The notes under the pieces are model-generated. The model was not told where the DNA came from and searched no databases. It worked only from the letters and a program-made list of their open reading frames with translations. A stretch of DNA of 25,762 nt, taken from IMG/VR virus record IMGVR_UViG_3300024180_000503, positions 1 through 25,762 of that record; one strand, given 5' to 3'. The position numbers were made by a program, and so were the translations under genes. The DNA is from a virus. Of the stretch, positions 15,004-24,014 are shown piece after piece (position 1 is the first letter of the stretch; every line of letters begins with the position of its first letter).

Positions 15004-16113
15004 TTATATTTTGGTTGTTGAGCTTTCGTATGTTTTGTTAAACTGATTATTAACACGAACGAATGTTGTACACTTGCTCAATTGTTTTAATTTCATTGCA
15101 CCTGCGTATGTACAAGTACTACGCAACCCGCCTAGGATTGCTTGTATGGTGTGCTGTACTGCACCTCTGTATGGAACTAGTACTTCTCGTCCTTCGCTTG
15201 CACGATAGTCTTTTAGTCCTCCAAAGTGTTTTGTATTTGCTGCATCACTACTCATTCCGTAAAAAGCCACAAACTGTTTTTGTTCAAGTAAAGGTTTTTC
15301 TGCTGTGAGCCATTCATTGGTTGCATACATCTTACTAATAACTTCGCCGCCGCCTTGATCATGTCCTGCAAGCATACCGCCTAGCATTACATAATCGGCA
15401 CCACCAGCAAATGCTTTAGCCACATCACCACTAGAGTTACAGCCCCCATCAGCAATAATATGTCCACCAAGTCCATGTGCCGCATCTGCACATTCAATGA
15501 CTGCACTAAGTTGCGGATACCCGACTCCTGTTTGGATTCGTGTTGTACACACGCTTCCTGGTCCAATTCCGACTTTAACGATGTCTGCTCCATTTAAAAT
15601 TAACTCCTCTGTCATCTCTCCGGTTACTACATTACCTGCTATAATTACTAAATTAGGAAATGCATTACGAACTTTTTTAACATGTTGTGCAAAGTGATCA
15701 CTGTAACCATTTGCAATATCCATACATACATATTTTAGTTTATTGCTTACTTTATTATACACGGCTTCTAACTTATCAAAGTCTATTGTTCCTGTACCAA
15801 TGCTCATAGCAATGTTTTGTGTTCTTCTATTATCTGGATAATCATTGTTAAAAAAATCTACAAGTTCTTCCACTGAATATGTTTTTACTAAACATGTAAA
15901 TATATTTTGTTGTGCAAGTTCATCTGCCATTTCAAATGTTCCAACACCATCCATGTTAGCAGCCATAATAGGAATACCTTCGTACTCATGTCTGCTGTTT
16001 CTAAATTTAAACTTGCGTTCAAGTCTTACTTGTTTGCGTGAACTTAATGTACTACGCTTTGGACGAATTAAAACGTCACTGTAGTCTAATTTTATGTCTT
16101 GATCAATTCTCAT
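15004..16113 (-). CDS. guaC: GMP reductase
   Basis: The protein is 369 residues (E. coli GuaC 347). It is an IMPDH/GMPR TIM barrel without CBS domains. [36 protein letters not shown] carries the catalytic Cys189 loop and reads as GMP reductase rather than IMPDH. The dinucleotide/phosphate region DGGC...[16 protein letters not shown] is intact. It converts GMP to IMP with NADPH, feeding purine interconversion and adenine nucleotide supply, which would suit an AT-rich phage. The ATG overlaps the end of the cytidylyltransferase gene by 11 nt. It is the last gene of the long run. Confidence 0.9.
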
Positions 16114-16516: not shown

Positions 16517-16908
16517 ATTAATAATCCTTGTACAAAGTTCATAGCTACTGCTGTTCCAGTTATAGCACTTCCTATCATAATAGCTCTGTCGCCCCAAGCC
16601 ATTCCAACAAATATCCAACCAATACTACTAACCATATATGCTACTTGGCCCCAAAATACTAATCCAGCACTAATTAAAAAGACTCCACAAACTGCAAAGC
16701 CCATTGCTGCCCACTTAATATACCAGTCTGTTGTACCAACTGGTGTTGTTGGTGTTAAGTCTTCTACTTCAGATTGTAGTTCTGACAATTCTTTCTTTAA
16801 ACGCTTACGTTCAGCACCTAATTCCATAGCCAGTTTTCCAGCTTTGGTCATTTGACTATCTTTGTATTCGGCTTTAACTTCTTGGCGTATTTCTTCTTCT
16901 TTTGTCAT
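16513..16908 (-). CDS. coiled-coil membrane protein, 131 aa
   Basis: The N-terminal half is highly charged and coiled-coil-like (TKEEEIRQEVKAEYKDSQ..., ERKRLKKELSELQSEVEDL, about residues 1-52). Three hydrophobic segments follow (about 60-80, 84-101, 106-128), ending in MNFVQGLLI. The ATG at 16908 overlaps the stop of the amidohydrolase gene as ATGA, and its own stop overlaps the cytidylyltransferase start in the same way. Such coupling suggests the three products work together, perhaps at the membrane. No family is recognised. Confidence 0.7.
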   Translation of the reverse strand: MTKEEEIRQEVKAEYKDSQMTKAGKLAMELGAERKRLKKELSELQSEVEDLTPTTPVGTTDWYIKWAAMGFAVCGVFLISAGLVFWGQVAYMVSSIGWIFVGMAWGDRAIMIGSAITGTAVAMNFVQGLLI

Positions 16909-17474
16909 AATCCTAAAATTCCGTATGCTTCGTATGGAAGCCAATGTGTTTTCATTTGTTCTGGATGCCATAACACTGCTATTATATTGTCTAATTTCCA
17001 ACTTTCACAAAATCCATACTCATCTGTAGCCAAACATGTTGCACCCGTAGGTATAGTTTTTAGTACTTGTTCATGTCTACTATAAACTTCAACATCACTA
17101 CCCTTATAGTTTACACTATGATTGATGTGATGTCTACCGTTTTCTTGTAAAGATCCACCATGAGCAACTGTCAAGAATTGACAGCCTCTGCTGATTCCTA
17201 ATATTGGTTTGTTGTATAGTTTTGCTAAATCTAACGTGTGTTTTTCAACTCGTAACCGATTTTCATTGTATTGCCAGTTTCCTGGTATCATACTGTTGCC
17301 GCCTGTAAACACTACTAAGTCACTATTAACTATTGTATCTGTTTTATAATGTTCTAAGTGGTTTGGTATTGGCAACAATGTATGACCAGAGAACATTTCA
17401 TAAAATCCATGATCAATGCTATCGTATGGTCCGTTTCGAAATTCAATCACACGTTGCGTGATTGCTATTTTCAT
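16905..17474 (-). CDS. class I glutamine amidotransferase-like hydrolase (peptidase C26)
   Basis: The protein is 189 residues. The nucleophile elbow GISRGCQFL contains Cys98, and the His/Glu pair is in LWHPEQ, giving a full Cys-His-Glu triad. The start KIAITQR and DEYGFCESWK resemble C26 gamma-glutamyl hydrolases, including the Campylobacter enzyme that cleaves gamma-glutamyl-CDP-amidate in phosphoramidate synthesis. Acting next to a cytidylyltransferase, it could belong to a similar pathway; that is inference. There is no synthase domain, so it is not a biosynthetic GATase fusion. It begins 8 nt after the clpS stop. Confidence 0.8.
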   Translation of the reverse strand: MKIAITQRVIEFRNGPYDSIDHGFYEMFSGHTLLPIPNHLEHYKTDTIVNSDLVVFTGGNSMIPGNWQYNENRLRVEKHTLDLAKLYNKPILGISRGCQFLTVAHGGSLQENGRHHINHSVNYKGSDVEVYSRHEQVLKTIPTGATCLATDEYGFCESWKLDNIIAVLWHPEQMKTHWLPYEAYGILGL

Positions 17475-17799: not shown

Positions 17800-18222
17800 T
17801 TAGTCAATGTTAATAGTTCGTGGTTTCTTTTCGTCTGGAATATTTTGTTCCAATGTAACTACTAAGATACCGTTATCTAGCTTCGACGATGTTACTTCTA
17901 CATAATCAGCTAAACTAAATTCTCTTGTGAAGTTTCTAGTTCCGATGCCTTTGTGTAAATATTCAATCTCTTCCTCGATTGGTTTCTTTTCAGCGTTAAT
18001 TGAAAGTGTATTACCGTCTTGTTGGATTTTTATTTCGTCTTTATCAAAACCTGCTACTGCTAGGCTAATAGAATAGCTACTGTCACTTTCCTTTACAATA
18101 TTGTAAGGTGGGTAACCGCCTGTGTTTGTTGTGAAAGCATTTGCCATCTCATCAAACATACTATCAAATCCTATTGTAGTTTTATAAAAATCTGGAAGAT
18201 TTAGTGTTGTTAATCTAGTCAT
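17800..18222 (-). CDS. hsp20: Hsp20/IbpA small heat-shock protein
   Basis: The protein is 140 residues. The N-terminal part TLNLPDFYKTTIGFDSMFDEM and the alpha-crystallin domain (YSISLAVAGFDKDEIKIQQDGNTLSINAEK, FTREFSLADYVEVTSSKLDNGILVVTLE) match bacterial IbpA-type holdases; a C-terminal EKKPRTINID follows. Hsp20 genes are common in T4-like marine phages, possibly aiding capsid assembly or proteostasis. The ATG at 18222 has AAGGAG 7 nt upstream. The frame can be extended to a TTG at 18246, but that lies inside the candidate thermometer stem. The leader carries three hairpins, the last one masking the ribosome site. Confidence 0.92.
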   Translation of the reverse strand: MTRLTTLNLPDFYKTTIGFDSMFDEMANAFTTNTGGYPPYNIVKESDSSYSISLAVAGFDKDEIKIQQDGNTLSINAEKKPIEEEIEYLHKGIGTRNFTREFSLADYVEVTSSKLDNGILVVTLEQNIPDEKKPRTINID

Positions 18223-18228
18223 ATCTTT

Positions 18229-18308
18229 TCTCCTTATATTAAGCAAGATTATTTAGAACCCTTTCGGCGTTCTATGTATACGGTAGGAATCAGTCCTGTT
18301 GTATACAT
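18229..18308 (-). promoter_or_regulatory. ROSE-like RNA thermometer in the hsp20 leader
   Basis: Three consecutive minus-strand hairpins. H1, 18308-18274: ATGTATAC/GTATACAT, a 3x3 internal loop, then AGGA/TCCT. H2, 18273-18255: AGAAC-CC with a GAAA tetraloop, then GG-GTTCT, one bulged G. H3, 18248-18229: TCTTGCTT/AAGGAGA with a 5-nt loop. In H3 the Shine-Dalgarno AAGGAG pairs with UUGCU, leaving a bulged G and one U-G pair. This is the defining arrangement of alphaproteobacterial ROSE thermometers, which also control hsp20-family genes. A 19-codon ATG frame (18308-18249) also spans H1 and H2. Confidence 0.7.
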
Positions 18309-18350: not shown

Positions 18351-18617
18351 TTAGTATAGTCTTTTCTTTACGATTGAATCTTTAGCTATTTCTCTACGTC
18401 TTCTAGCTCGGCCTGCCGCCTCTGCTTTAAGTCTTTTTTCAGTATTACTAACAAAGTATCTGCGTTCGCGTACTTCGTTCATAAGTCCAGTTTTCATAAC
18501 TAACTTCTTAAGTTTTCTCATAGCTTGTTCTACATTGCCATTTCTAACTTCTACAGATAGTCCAGGACCAAACTGAGGTTTTTCATTACGTTTATTATTT
18601 TTGTTATAGTTTCCCAT
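18351..18617 (-). CDS. rpsU: ribosomal protein bS21
   Basis: The protein is 88 residues. After a basic N-terminal extension (about 20 residues), VEVRNGNVEQAMRKLKKLVMKTGLMNEVRERRYF is the bS21 core, followed by the basic helix KRLKAEAAGRARRRREIAK. bS21 lies near the anti-Shine-Dalgarno region of the 30S subunit and influences initiation. It is one of the few ribosomal proteins known in phages. A phage copy could replace the host protein and bias initiation to viral mRNAs. AAAGG lies before the ATG; infC ends 8 nt upstream. Confidence 0.93.
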   Translation of the reverse strand: MGNYNKNNKRNEKPQFGPGLSVEVRNGNVEQAMRKLKKLVMKTGLMNEVRERRYFVSNTEKRLKAEAAGRARRRREIAKDSIVKKRLY

Positions 18618-18625
18618 GTTTACCT

Positions 18626-19156
18626 TTATTGTATTTTACCAGATACACGATTGTTCTGTGATGATATTTGCTCGTATTCTACTTCTAATAGATAAGCAAA
18701 TGTATTTAGCAATTCCCTTGCAAGGTCTTGCCTCCCACGTTCTCTACCACGCAAAACAACTGTAACTGTTACTTTGTTATTTTTATCCAAAAATTTACGA
18801 GCTGCTTTAGCTTTGGTCTCTAAATCATGTGTATCTATGTTTAGTCCCATACGCACTTCTTTGGTCTCTACAACGCTTTCTCGTTGCTTCTTCTTTGCCA
18901 GTTTTTCTTTTTGCTTTAATGAATACAAATGCTTGTTTAGATCAATTATTTTACAAACTGGTGGATCTGCCTTTTCGGCTATCAACACTAAATCTAAATA
19001 CAGTGACTTTGCTTCATCTAAAGCATCTTTCAAAGACAGCACCTGGCTTTCACCGTCTGGAAAGTTTACTCTAACTTCTTTTGCTCTTATTCGATCATTT
19101 GCGATTACAAATGGGCCTTTTGTACGTTGTTTATATCCTTTGTTTCTATTCTGCAT
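18626..19156 (-). CDS. infC: translation initiation factor IF-3
   Basis: The protein is 176 residues (E. coli 180), with both domains. The N-domain is IANDRIRAKEVRV...DALDEAKSLYLDLVLIAEKADPPVCKIIDLNKHLYSLKQKEK. The linker KLAKKKQRESVVETKEVRM is Lys-rich. The C-domain is NIDTHDLETKAKAARKFLDKNNKVTVTVVLRGRER. IF-3 binds the 30S subunit and proofreads start codons. The start is ATG 19156 with AAAGGTG upstream; the longer frame to 19207 is internal to clpX. The start overlaps the clpX end by 11 nt. Host infC normally starts at AUU for autoregulation; this copy has ATG, so it escapes that control. Confidence 0.93.
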   Translation of the reverse strand: MQNRNKGYKQRTKGPFVIANDRIRAKEVRVNFPDGESQVLSLKDALDEAKSLYLDLVLIAEKADPPVCKIIDLNKHLYSLKQKEKLAKKKQRESVVETKEVRMGLNIDTHDLETKAKAARKFLDKNNKVTVTVVLRGRERGRQDLARELLNTFAYLLEVEYEQISSQNNRVSGKIQ

Positions 19157-20363
19157 TGTCACCTTTGATAAATTGTGGCTGTGCGTTTCTAGAAATAACT
19201 TGTTCATTTATAATAATTTTGCGTACTCCCTTTTCATATAATTCTGGCAATTGATATTGAGTTTCTAATAGTGCTTGATCTAATATTTTACGTAAACCTC
19301 TAGCACCTAATTCTTCATCAATGGCAGTTTTTGCAATTTGTTCCAATGCTGTTATTGTAAACTCTATTTGTATTTTGTCAAGTAGAAAAAGCTCTTTTAT
19401 TTGATCAATTATACTACCCACTGGTTCAGTTAGTATGCGTACAAGATCGTTCTTATTTAACGGTCTTAAGACGTTTACAGACGGTAATCTACCTACAAAT
19501 TCCGGTATAAGTCCATACTTCACTAAATCACGTGTTTGTAAGTGCTTTTCCCATTGTTCTACATCGGTGTCTAAACCGTCGTTAAATCCTATCTTTGCTT
19601 TGCCGAGCCGGTTAACCACAACATCTTGTAGGCCAACAAAGGCTCCACCTACTACAAATAGTATGTTACTGGTGTCTATATTCACCTTCTCCGGGTTATG
19701 TTGCGGTTTGTTCGGAACCGCTAGTATAGTACCTTCCATGAGCTTTAAAAGGCTCTGTTGTACGCCTTCTCCTGAAACGTCTCTACTCAGGCTAACATAG
19801 TCATTACGTTTTGCTTTTTTATCAATCTCGTCAACATATATAATACCATGCTCTGTGCGTTCTTGATTGTAATTTGCTGCTTGAAATAATTTGTGTATTA
19901 GAACTTCTGCATCGTCGCCTGCATATCCACTTTCAGTAATAACAGTTGCATCAGTAACTACCATTGGTACACCTAAAAAGTCTGCAAGTGTTTGTGCTAA
20001 CAATGTTTTACCAGTTCCTGTAGGACCGCATAATAGTACATTGCTTTTTTGTAATTTTGTTTTTGTAGTTGTTGATATTCTTTTATAGTGATTGTATATT
20101 GCTACACTCAAAGTCTTTTTTGCATAATCTTGACTAATTACGTGTTTGTCTAAATCGTTATGTATTTCTCTAGGAGTAGGAACTTCATATTTTTTACCAT
20201 AATTTTTATGTATAGCTTCTACTTTCTTTTCTTTAACAATGCCGTAGCAAAGTTCAACACAATCGCTACAAATGTGAGTATCATTTTCACCTGCTAGTAG
20301 CTTTTTTACTTGTGTTGCGTCTTTGTTACAAAAATTGCATATGGTAGGTTTGCTAGACTTCAT
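19146..20363 (-). CDS. clpX: ClpX AAA+ unfoldase
   Basis: The protein is 405 residues (E. coli 424). The zinc-binding N-domain has C9, C12, C32 and C35. Walker A is GPTGTGKT (113-120), Walker B IIYVDEID (174-181), IPEFVGRLP holds the arginine finger (Arg292), and LGARGLRK is sensor 2. The IGF loop that docks into ClpP is intact (258-260). Two substrate-handling loops differ from E. coli: pore-1 is GYAG (146-149) instead of GYVG, and the RKH loop is shorter and lacks Arg-Lys (PQHNPEK region, 220-226). It should therefore dock onto ClpP but may select substrates differently. The ATG overlaps the upstream gene by 11 nt. Confidence 0.95.
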   Translation of the reverse strand: MKSSKPTICNFCNKDATQVKKLLAGENDTHICSDCVELCYGIVKEKKVEAIHKNYGKKYEVPTPREIHNDLDKHVISQDYAKKTLSVAIYNHYKRISTTTKTKLQKSNVLLCGPTGTGKTLLAQTLADFLGVPMVVTDATVITESGYAGDDAEVLIHKLFQAANYNQERTEHGIIYVDEIDKKAKRNDYVSLSRDVSGEGVQQSLLKLMEGTILAVPNKPQHNPEKVNIDTSNILFVVGGAFVGLQDVVVNRLGKAKIGFNDGLDTDVEQWEKHLQTRDLVKYGLIPEFVGRLPSVNVLRPLNKNDLVRILTEPVGSIIDQIKELFLLDKIQIEFTITALEQIAKTAIDEELGARGLRKILDQALLETQYQLPELYEKGVRKIIINEQVISRNAQPQFIKGDNAE

Positions 20364-20802
20364 TAAAATATTCTGGGCTCATCTGTAGTTTTATATAGTT
20401 GTTTATATCATCTAATGATCTTACAACTAGATTAGTGCCTGTAGCATTTATTAATTTTACAGTTTCTCTTCGTTTGTATTTATCGCTGTAAAATAACACT
20501 GTATTTTCTTCATCTTTTGATTTTAAAAGTCCCGACATAATATCTTCCCATGCACACGTATCAACATCGATAACCATAAAGTCGCATGTTTTAGAAACAT
20601 TCCACATCCATGGTAATGTTTCTGAATTAGTTTTTTTATTTTGTACTAAGAACACAATGCTTGTTGCAATAAACTTTTCAAATAATTCTTTTACTGATGC
20701 AATAAAAGTTTCATTGGTACTTGAAATAAGAATACTTATTCCATGTTCTGTCATATAAAGGTCTGGGGGTGTTACAGTGTAACTACTGTTATCAATTTTC
20801 AT
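20353..20802 (-). CDS. conserved phage hypothetical protein, 149 aa
   Basis: A soluble alpha/beta protein: ISILISSTNETFIASVKELFEKFIATSIVFLVQ, then DFMVIDVDTCAWEDIMSGLL, TVLFYSDKYKRRETVKLINATG. It has a response-regulator-like alternation of strands and helices, with acidic residues (IDVD) at a strand end, but no clear phospho-acceptor signature. It resembles proteins of T4-like marine phages by memory. It overlaps the clpX start by 11 nt, so the two are probably co-translated, and it could be a ClpX partner. Function unknown. Confidence 0.7.
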   Translation of the reverse strand: MKIDNSSYTVTPPDLYMTEHGISILISSTNETFIASVKELFEKFIATSIVFLVQNKKTNSETLPWMWNVSKTCDFMVIDVDTCAWEDIMSGLLKSKDEENTVLFYSDKYKRRETVKLINATGTNLVVRSLDDINNYIKLQMSPEYFNEV

Positions 20803-22269
20803 TTAATTTTTCTTTTTTCGTTGTAATTTTTTTGACTTATCGTTTAGATCGTATTGTAATTGTTCTATTAGGTATTTTCTGTTGCCGTGTGTATCAATTG
20901 TATATTCTTCACCTTTTGAATCCGTATGCACTACGTCTTCTTCATATATTTTATTTTGAACAACAGGTTTTTTGGAAGTCTTGTTGTCTTTTTTATTACC
21001 CACAACATCTTTCTTAACGTCGGTGACATCTTTATCATTGTTAAATTTTGTAGGTTTTTCTTTTTTTTCATGTGTTCCTTTTGTTGATTTGCGTAATCCT
21101 AATCCAGATATTCCTGCAAGAACAAGTACAACTGCTAAAGGATCAAATACAAATACAAGTACTAGTATAACATATCTTACTGTTTCTTCCAAGATATTTT
21201 TACCAGGTTCTTGTCCATAAACTAATTCTGCAATATACTTAACTGGACCAACTTCTGCTTCTAGTTTTCTACTTTCGCCTTGTAGTGTATATTTTGTAGT
21301 ATAAAGTGATTCCAACTTATCTTCAGAATCAACAATTAAATTACGCTGCGTCTCAATTAATACTGTATTGTCTTGTTGTTGACCTTGTCCAAGTTGAGCT
21401 CTAAGTCTAGTGATTAGGGTGTTAGAGTCTGCAATCTGTTGTTCTGCTAACATTCTAAGTCTTTTAATTTCCTGTCTAGCAGTTTTTGTTACAGTATCTT
21501 CTTCTGTCCTAACTTTATTTAGCTGATAAACAGCTATGCGTCTAGCCTTGGCATTATCTTCTTTAAACTTCTTTAATGCTTCTCTAGTATTATACCCTAT
21601 TCTTCCATCTTGTGCAACTCCTATTAGGCCTTGCATTTTCTTTACTTCGCCGCTAATTGAATATTCGTCTAACAATTCTAACTTTTTATCAATGTTACTT
21701 ATTTCTCTTTCGTATGGAGCAGTAGCATTTTCTTTGTCAGATGCTTGTTTATCAATAATAGCATTCTGTTCGTCAATTGATGGTTGTACTCCATCGTATG
21801 CTGAATTAATTCTTTCTTGTTCTGTACGTATTTTTTCTTGTATTTCAATGTCTTTAGTATCGTCTACTTGTTCAAGTTTAACAATTTTATCTTCTGACTT
21901 AGTAATAATTAATTTATTTCTTACTATGCTTTCTTCTATACGCTCAAGTTGGGCAACGTTCTCACTAGCCGCACTAGTTTGTTCAATGTGTGCTTTAGAT
22001 AAAAATCCAAATATGCCCATGCTCGTAATGAACATAAGCATTATCACGGCTACAGTGAGATACGTTTTAATTAAAAATGGAGCTGATTTCCAGTTCATGT
22101 GCAACCAGACAGCTGATGTCAACTTGCCTACTTCTAGCACAGACCCCATAATAATAATCGGTATAACGGCACTGGCAAATATAGCCACAAGTCCAACAAT
22201 GCTGTAGTAGGCCGCCACAGCACTTATAGATAGTGCAACTAAAACTGTCCAGTAACCGAATAACCTCAT
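20803..22269 (-). CDS. membrane protein with long coiled coil, 488 aa
   Basis: Three N-terminal transmembrane segments (about 7-22, 26-45, 68-90) are followed by a long coiled-coil domain (about 95-345; heptads rich in E, K, I, L and Q), a C-terminal membrane segment (about 362-388) and a basic, disordered tail ending in LQRKKKN. It looks like the large 'coil-containing' membrane proteins of T4-like marine phages (memory only). It may scaffold something at the inner membrane. The stop is immediately followed by the next ATG. Confidence 0.75.
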   Translation of the reverse strand: MRLFGYWTVLVALSISAVAAYYSIVGLVAIFASAVIPIIIMGSVLEVGKLTSAVWLHMNWKSAPFLIKTYLTVAVIMLMFITSMGIFGFLSKAHIEQTSAASENVAQLERIEESIVRNKLIITKSEDKIVKLEQVDDTKDIEIQEKIRTEQERINSAYDGVQPSIDEQNAIIDKQASDKENATAPYEREISNIDKKLELLDEYSISGEVKKMQGLIGVAQDGRIGYNTREALKKFKEDNAKARRIAVYQLNKVRTEEDTVTKTARQEIKRLRMLAEQQIADSNTLITRLRAQLGQGQQQDNTVLIETQRNLIVDSEDKLESLYTTKYTLQGESRKLEAEVGPVKYIAELVYGQEPGKNILEETVRYVILVLVFVFDPLAVVLVLAGISGLGLRKSTKGTHEKKEKPTKFNNDKDVTDVKKDVVGNKKDNKTSKKPVVQNKIYEEDVVHTDSKGEEYTIDTHGNRKYLIEQLQYDLNDKSKKLQRKKKN

Positions 22270-23426: not shown

Positions 23427-24014
23427 TTATGTTTTCCGAACAACAACTTTATCAGCTAGGCCAAAATCTACGGCTTCTTGTGCTGACATAAAATTATCAC
23501 GTTCCATAGCTGCACTAAGCTCTTCGTAAGTTTTACCTTTTGAGTTATGCTTCTCGTACATGCGTGTAAGATTTTCTTTCATCTTAATAATTTCTTTTAC
23601 TTGGATTTCCATGTCTGTTGCTTGTCCGCCTGCTCCACCGCTTGGTTGGTGAATCATTGTACGTGAATTTGGCAATACTAAACGTTTGCCTGGTTTTCCT
23701 GCCATAGCAAGGAAACTACCCATACTACATGCTTGTCCCATTACAATTGTACTTACTGGAGATTTAATAAACTGCATTGTATCATATATGCCTAATCCTG
23801 CGGTTACTACACCACCTGGACTATTAATATAAAAGTTAATATCTTCTGCACTATTTTGTGATTCTAAAAATAGCATCTGTGCAACTACTAAATTTGCACT
23901 ATGGTCATTAACTTCGCCGTTAAGCATTACAATACGATCTTTTAGCAAACGACTATAAATGTCATATGCACGTTCGCCTCTGCCTGTACTCTCAATTACT
24001 GTTGGTATTATCAT
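23427..24014 (-). CDS. clpP: ClpP serine protease subunit
   Basis: The protein is 195 residues, the length of a mature ClpP with almost no propeptide. The catalytic triad is visible: Ser97 in GQACSMGSF, His122 in [10 protein letters not shown], Asp173 in [27 protein letters not shown] and the [10 protein letters not shown] start of the axial region are typical. It should form tetradecamers with phage or host ClpP and partner with a ClpX whose IGF loop is intact. AGGAG lies 5 nt before the ATG. It is separated from clpX by four genes (kinase, SNase, coiled-coil protein, unknown). Confidence 0.95.

Follow-up and report, generated by a model that had tools for sequence, protein, structure and literature searches.

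The window analysed here, 25,762 nt of the IMG/VR virus record IMGVR_UViG_3300024180_000503, encodes the unfoldase ClpX, translation initiation factor IF3, and ribosomal protein bS21 in one gene string (Table 1). As described in a first-pass annotation, infC starts inside clpX (an 11-nt overlap, 19146-19156), and rpsU starts 8 nt past infC (gap 18618-18625). All three genes are full-length and under purifying selection (dN/dS 0.015-0.09 for infC, 0.10-0.28 for rpsU, and 0.09-0.21 for clpX), and a Pfam search of the window proteins placed all their domains above the cut-offs. The tight spacing is unremarkable, since it is ordinary in a 204 kb relative (G002), where 131 of 234 same-strand neighbour pairs lie at most 10 nt apart when longest-ORF starts are used. 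The signal is the conserved gene order, not the close spacing. The proteolysis and translation initiation genes are presumably co-expressed.

Table 1. Features of the window discussed in the text
Feature	Position	Strand	Basis or remark
Permuted two-piece alphaproteobacterial-type tmRNA, tag ANDNYSPEMALAA	9946..10327	-	Rfam RF01849, RF04321; ARAGORN
clpS, N-degron adaptor, 100 aa	17483..17785	-	Pfam ClpS 5.8e-29
hsp20, small heat-shock protein, 140 aa from ATG 18222	17800..18222	-	Pfam HSP20 1.2e-19; PHROG 432
ROSE-like RNA thermometer candidate, hsp20 leader, directly downstream of rpsU	18220..18308	-	RNAalifold; Rfam ROSE_3
rpsU, ribosomal protein bS21, 88 aa, N-terminal extension of ~18 residues	18351..18617	-	Pfam Ribosomal_S21 2.6e-12; alignment
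infC, translation initiation factor IF3, 176 aa, ATG start	18626..19156	-	Pfam IF3_N 5e-21, IF3_C 7.9e-21; PHROG 9787 6.4e-44
clpX, AAA+ unfoldase with C4 zinc finger, 405 aa	19146..20363	-	Pfam zf-C4_ClpX, AAA_2, ClpB_D2-small
149 aa protein, nucleoside-deoxyribosyltransferase-like fold, 11-nt overlap with clpX	20353..20802	-	Kept in at least 34 loci
488 aa putative membrane protein, long coiled region, upstream of the string, gap 0 nt	20803..22269	-	
clpP, peptidase, 195 aa, 3 kb upstream of clpX	23427..24014	-	Pfam CLP_protease 3.6e-79

The three-gene unit proposed in the first-pass annotation is real and yet too small, as its context includes Hsp20, ClpS, ClpP, a tmRNA, and an upstream deoxyribosyltransferase-like protein. 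The string extends upstream through the 149 aa and 488 aa proteins and downstream through hsp20, clpS, and a glutamine amidotransferase. The AlphaFold2 model of the 149 aa protein (pLDDT 84) gave a viral Foldseek match (E 2.8e-9, TM 0.79) and weak PDB matches. We considered a ClpX adaptor or a translation factor for this protein and set both aside, because the model weakly resembles nucleoside deoxyribosyltransferase or receiver folds. The 488 aa protein is without a Pfam or PHROG match, and phages as large as 460 kb (L099 and L107) still carry homologues of it upstream of ClpX/IF3. Both proteins consistently precede the string, including in loci that lack ClpX. Following clpS, the window carries genes for a C26-type glutamine amidotransferase (16905-17474, minus strand) and an IMP dehydrogenase/GMP reductase (15004-16113, minus strand), which accompany the module in many relatives.

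In IF3, a linker connects the IF3_N and IF3_C domains, and the profile of the protein matched solved IF3 chains (E 2e-44). bS21 scored 46.7 bits against PF01165 (cut-off 27). In the IF3 tree, the phage proteins lie mostly outside the bacterial clades, with three to four label changes, two of which are contaminant contigs. This placement indicates that phages have long had the gene and did not recently capture it from a host. At two positions, the window lineage differs from E. coli IF3 (G at position 99 and mostly T at 147). Loss of 30S-contact arginines was discarded as a mark of an altered IF3, since bacteria vary there too (at position 99, R in 36 and S in 36 of 80).

The long relatives encode a T4-type terminase, a contractile tail sheath, a gp15-type stabiliser, a family B polymerase, and a class I ribonucleotide reductase. 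Judged from gene content, the carriers are large T4-like myoviruses. The host is probably an alphaproteobacterium, based on the alphaproteobacterial form of the tmRNA and the ROSE-like leader of hsp20.

Clp proteins, tmRNA, and the hsp20 leader

An alignment with E. coli ClpX showed that the phage protein keeps the four cysteines, Walker A (GPTGTGKT), Walker B (DEIDK), and the GARGLR motif, and retains the IGF loop that docks ClpP. The pore loop reads GYAG in the window lineage and GYVG in other phages. ClpP is encoded in 12 of 12 close records. Of the E. coli ClpS binding-pocket motifs, NDD and VH are present in the phage protein, and TPMEF is changed to TPQEF. Full-length ClpA was found in 18 of 21 records of a wider related set, and all eight isolate genomes compared encode a ClpA-like protein. 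In G002, ClpA (phrog_4871) lies at L112:7623-9887, and nearly all large relatives have it as well. Because ClpA is present there and in the eight isolates, a phage ClpAP is the probable partner of ClpS. The same distribution makes it less likely that ClpS serves host ClpAP alone (Iyer 2021), as 8/8 isolates and most related contigs encode a ClpA-like protein.

The tmRNA scored 116.7 bits against RF01849 (gathering score 50) and 120.9 bits against RF04321, and its tag, ANDNYSPEMALAA, ends in ALAA. Sixteen of 21 related records, the window included, contain a tmRNA, and the tags in the loci read end in LAA, MAA, or IAA. C-termini of this type are of the kind recognised by ClpX and ClpA. No SmpB gene was found in the 21 related records, so that tagging would need host SmpB. 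The window also holds eight tRNA genes predicted by ARAGORN between 6294 and 9258 on the minus strand, for Gln, Ser, Leu(tag), Met, Trp, Leu(taa), Arg(tct), and Arg(gcg).

The hsp20 leader RNA forms four helices, in which 98.6% of the cells are paired, with double changes in 8 cells versus 2.6 in shuffles and a fold z-score of -4.48. In the last hairpin, UCUUGCUU pairs with the hsp20 Shine-Dalgarno (SD) sequence AAGGAGA, and this pairing is invariant in 12 relatives. A UUGCU motif (of the UYGCU type) lies opposite the SD, as in ROSE thermometers. The Rfam ROSE_3 match (25.6 bits, E 0.002) stayed below the gathering score of 43, and we therefore name the element ROSE-like only. A covariance model of the leader found one place in the 204 kb relative; it also found hsp20 leaders of distant phages, several of them weakly. 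A literature search for cyanophage, Hsp20, and RNA thermometer together retrieved no paper.

Start codon of infC

The infC ATG at 19156 follows the SD sequence AAAGGTGA and recurs in nearly every close relative, with TTG in two loci (L025/L026); position 19207, further upstream, offers another ATG in the same frame. E. coli infC has AUU as its start codon (ATC in Streptomyces), and translation of the gene is repressed by IF3 itself; changing AUU to AUG abolishes this self-control (PMC5472188, citing Butler 1987). The first-pass annotation pointed out that the phage gene uses ATG instead of the autoregulatory AUU, and this distinction proved to be general between phages and bacteria. The strongest SD (at least 5 nt) precedes AUU, AUC, AUA, or CUG (the last in few cases) in 75 of 81 distinct bacterial infC relatives and ATG, GTG, or TTG in 2, whereas among 65 distinct phage infC genes, an SD of this length precedes these non-AUG codons in 4 and ATG, GTG, or TTG in 13. 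With an SD of at least 6 nt, the non-AUG and ATG/GTG/TTG counts are 51 and 1 for bacteria versus 0 and 7 for phages. The contrast is large (Fisher p ~1e-10, without phylogenetic correction). The SDs of phage infC are weaker than the bacterial ones, the start is uncertain in some phage loci, and the window lineage also has weak SD matches before non-AUG codons. The non-AUG autoregulatory start is a property of the bacterial gene rather than of IF3 as a protein. The ATG starts of phage infC may perhaps reflect just a relaxed need for feedback.

Initiation sites elsewhere in the genome are canonical. An SD of at least 4 nt precedes 70% of the phage's genes versus 32% of internal controls, and the starts are mostly ATG. 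Non-SD initiation in the phage was rejected, as the SD sites are strong. A T4-type late promoter (TATAAATA) beside the string was likewise dismissed, with 2 occurrences in the window versus 5.2 expected.

Gene order across phages

Using the IF3 protein as the query, we collected 32 IMG/VR loci of the close lineage, and an alignment of distant phage IF3s retrieved 53 additional loci. The order clpX-infC-rpsU-(hsp20)-clpS is kept in the 32 close loci wherever the contig covers it, and hsp20 is missing from four of them (L027-L030). The phage IF3s were clustered at 65% identity, leaving out bacterial contamination. In the resulting 25 clusters, ClpX is directly upstream of IF3 in 12, bS21 is directly downstream in 11, Hsp20 lies within 1.5 kb in 11, ClpS lies within 2.5 kb in 16, and at least one of the four stands by IF3 in 20; these counts, seeded from IF3-bearing loci and ignoring phylogeny, show recurrence, not the number of independent origins. 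The fullest form of the module is ClpX-IF3-bS21-Hsp20-ClpS. In distant phages, the clpX-infC distance ranges from -44 to +122 nt, and the infC-rpsU distance, where the two are adjacent, from -17 to +10 nt, except in L010 (96 nt).

Isolates carry parts of this order. ClpX and IF3 adjoin in the annotated genomes of Atu_ph07 and Phosso, PA5oct has ClpX-bS21-x-x-Hsp20-ClpS, Vibrio 2.275.O has IF3-bS21-ClpS-like, and GAP32, XbC2, RaK2, Munch, and BF have IF3-ClpS. bS21 was present in 15 of 18 records. Phages do not always carry the full module: ClpX is absent from the RaK2-like loci L064-L087, and other phages are without bS21 or IF3.

The bacterial infC order, thrS-infC-rpmI-rplT, was seen in the Acinetobacter 'phage' MD-2021a, a mislabelled record that we left out of the counts. 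The faecal contigs L053 and L054, nested inside bacterial IF3 clades, were also omitted. Three accessions filed as phage, CAKLQF020000017.1 (L051), MT835512.1 (L053), and MT835497.1 (L054), carry a bacterial infC and are likely contamination.

The first-pass annotation read the grouping of these genes as viral retuning of initiation. Its premise is borne out insofar as the translation and proteolysis genes form a recurrent phage unit, unlike the bacterial order. A changed initiation-site preference did not find support, because with canonical SD sites and ATG starts, nothing in the sequence marks retuning over plain supply or replacement. The sequence is compatible with supply, replacement, or altered preference alike.

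Interpretation and relation to known systems

On balance, we lean toward the view that the string forms the centre of an ancient module, recurring among phages, with which a T4-like myovirus runs host ribosomes and keeps them clean over a long infection. The observed basis of this module comprises the gene identities, their order, deep conservation, purifying selection, the lost non-AUG start, the ClpX motifs, and the tmRNA tag. From these, we infer ribosome binding, escape from feedback, and the Clp substrates. Phage IF3 would bind to the host's 30S subunits. Phage bS21, as a small-subunit protein that exchanges easily, would replace or supplement its host counterpart, and the two would keep initiation going while host synthesis fails. 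With an AUG-started infC, IF3 synthesis would not be shut off by IF3 itself. ClpX and phage ClpP, with ClpA and ClpS in relatives, would degrade proteins that are aborted, unwanted, or tagged, among them the products of tagging by the phage tmRNA, and Hsp20 would hold unfolding proteins. A more specific version remains tentative, and we think it somewhat unlikely: the AUG-started infC would be immune to IF3 autorepression, and phage IF3 would accumulate and repress the AUU/AUA-started host infC, leaving ribosomes served by phage IF3 and bS21 and tmRNA-tagged products to be cleared by phage ClpXP.

The alternatives overlap one another and, in part, the module view. The main rival, a credible reading that we nevertheless hold to be the less probable one, is plain supply. 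IF3 and bS21 would sustain normal factor levels as host mRNAs decay, with preference unchanged, while the Clp proteins perform separate housekeeping. The clustering would be no more than the usual packing of maintenance genes of late infection into operons. Canonical SD usage, dominant ATG starts, the normal domain architecture of the proteins, and the close spacing common in the genome are all consistent with it; however, it gives no account of why these genes stay neighbours across very divergent phages or why the AUU-type start is consistently avoided. The neighbourhood might also be an ancestral gene order frozen in T4-related jumbo phages, with its genes functionally uncoupled, as the carriers with genomes examined are T4-like and the 488 aa protein and GMP reductase travel along. 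Much of the module synteny may indeed be vertical descent within T4-related phages. Yet lineages differ in their partial combinations (ClpX-IF3, ClpX-bS21, IF3-bS21, and IF3-ClpS), and where ClpX is missing the remaining genes still lie close together. This suggests that membership is under selection and makes synteny without coupling unlikely in our judgement.

We regard as distinctly unlikely that phage IF3 mainly recycles or rescues ribosomes together with tmRNA and Clp, splitting 70S particles and releasing stalled complexes, instead of acting in start-site choice. Ribosome rescue has been suggested for jumbo-phage IF3 (Iyer 2021), and the phage tmRNA and Clp genes fit this role, but the adjoining bS21 is an initiation-platform protein and a rescue factor is absent among the neighbours. 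A link of ClpX and IF3 through replication control, with ClpX removing a replication initiator, was put forward in the papers on the rhizobial jumbo phages Atu_ph07 and AP-J-162 (PMC6102473, PMC11242549). Atu_ph07 and Phosso have topoisomerase genes close by, and RaK2-like phages have them downstream. In the window, however, a topoisomerase was not recognised beside the string, whose neighbours are bS21, Hsp20, ClpS, and nucleotide-metabolism genes; replication control leaves IF3 and bS21 unexplained, and we consider it highly improbable.

Phage IF3, bS21, Clp proteins, and tmRNA are already known, as is clpX beside IF3 in one Sinorhizobium phage. IF3, ClpX, and ClpS were described in jumbo phages (Iyer 2021). 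The IF3s of PHROG 9787 (RaK2, GAP32, Atu_ph07, and Munch) are likewise full two-domain proteins, with ClpS or ClpX adjoining in several; 71 phage records match this family, some bacterial contamination among them. The jumbo-phage isolate IF3s are ~37-44% identical to the window IF3, and among the isolates read, bS21 directly follows IF3 in Vibrio 2.275.O only. The Sinorhizobium phage AP-J-162 has clpX directly beside IF-3 (PMC11242549), an arrangement also seen in the Atu_ph07 record, and likewise has tmRNA, bS21, and Hsp20. Unlike the window lineage, these are 470-490 kb phages in which bS21 and Hsp20 occupy separate loci by gene number and the neighbourhood was read as replication control. 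bS21 is likewise known from large phages (Mizuno 2019; Chen 2022), and a survey of 900 phages counted Hsp20 (127) and Clp proteases (50 and 47) at a distance of up to 10 genes from bS21 (Chen 2022, PMC9723584). Those bS21 genes are often near capsid genes, and an IF3 neighbour or the order ClpX-IF3-bS21-Hsp20-ClpS is not described there. The permuted alphaproteobacterial two-piece tmRNA has a counterpart in the T4-like marine phage Melnitz (PMC9004378), in a paper without mention of Clp; the window phage adds ClpX, ClpP, and ClpS, and its relatives add ClpA.

Phage IF1, IF3, S21, tmRNA, and other factors have been proposed to redirect host translation (Al-Shayeb 2020, PMC7162821), and the idea that phage IF1, IF3, and S21 intercept host translation is thus already published. 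In its accessible text, that huge-phage model is presented without a gene linkage, start-codon, or Clp argument. Virus-encoded ribosomal proteins were reported to be incorporated into 30S subunits (Mizuno 2019). These two papers offer independent grounds for thinking that phage S21 and IF3 act on host ribosomes. Our search of the open-access literature found no description of a conserved ClpX-IF3-bS21-Hsp20-ClpS unit or of the start-codon contrast of phage infC.

So far, phage IF3 and bS21 have mainly been scattered genes with a proposed role in translation takeover. An ordered unit joining them to ClpX, Hsp20, and ClpS provides a defined object for genetics. The absent AUU-type start offers a simple and direct way to ask whether phages evade a textbook feedback on initiation and perhaps even use it against the host. 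The phage tmRNA and the phage Clp set would form a nearly self-contained route of tagging and degradation, SmpB excepted. Together, the module suggests a shared phage toolkit for running host ribosomes in infection.
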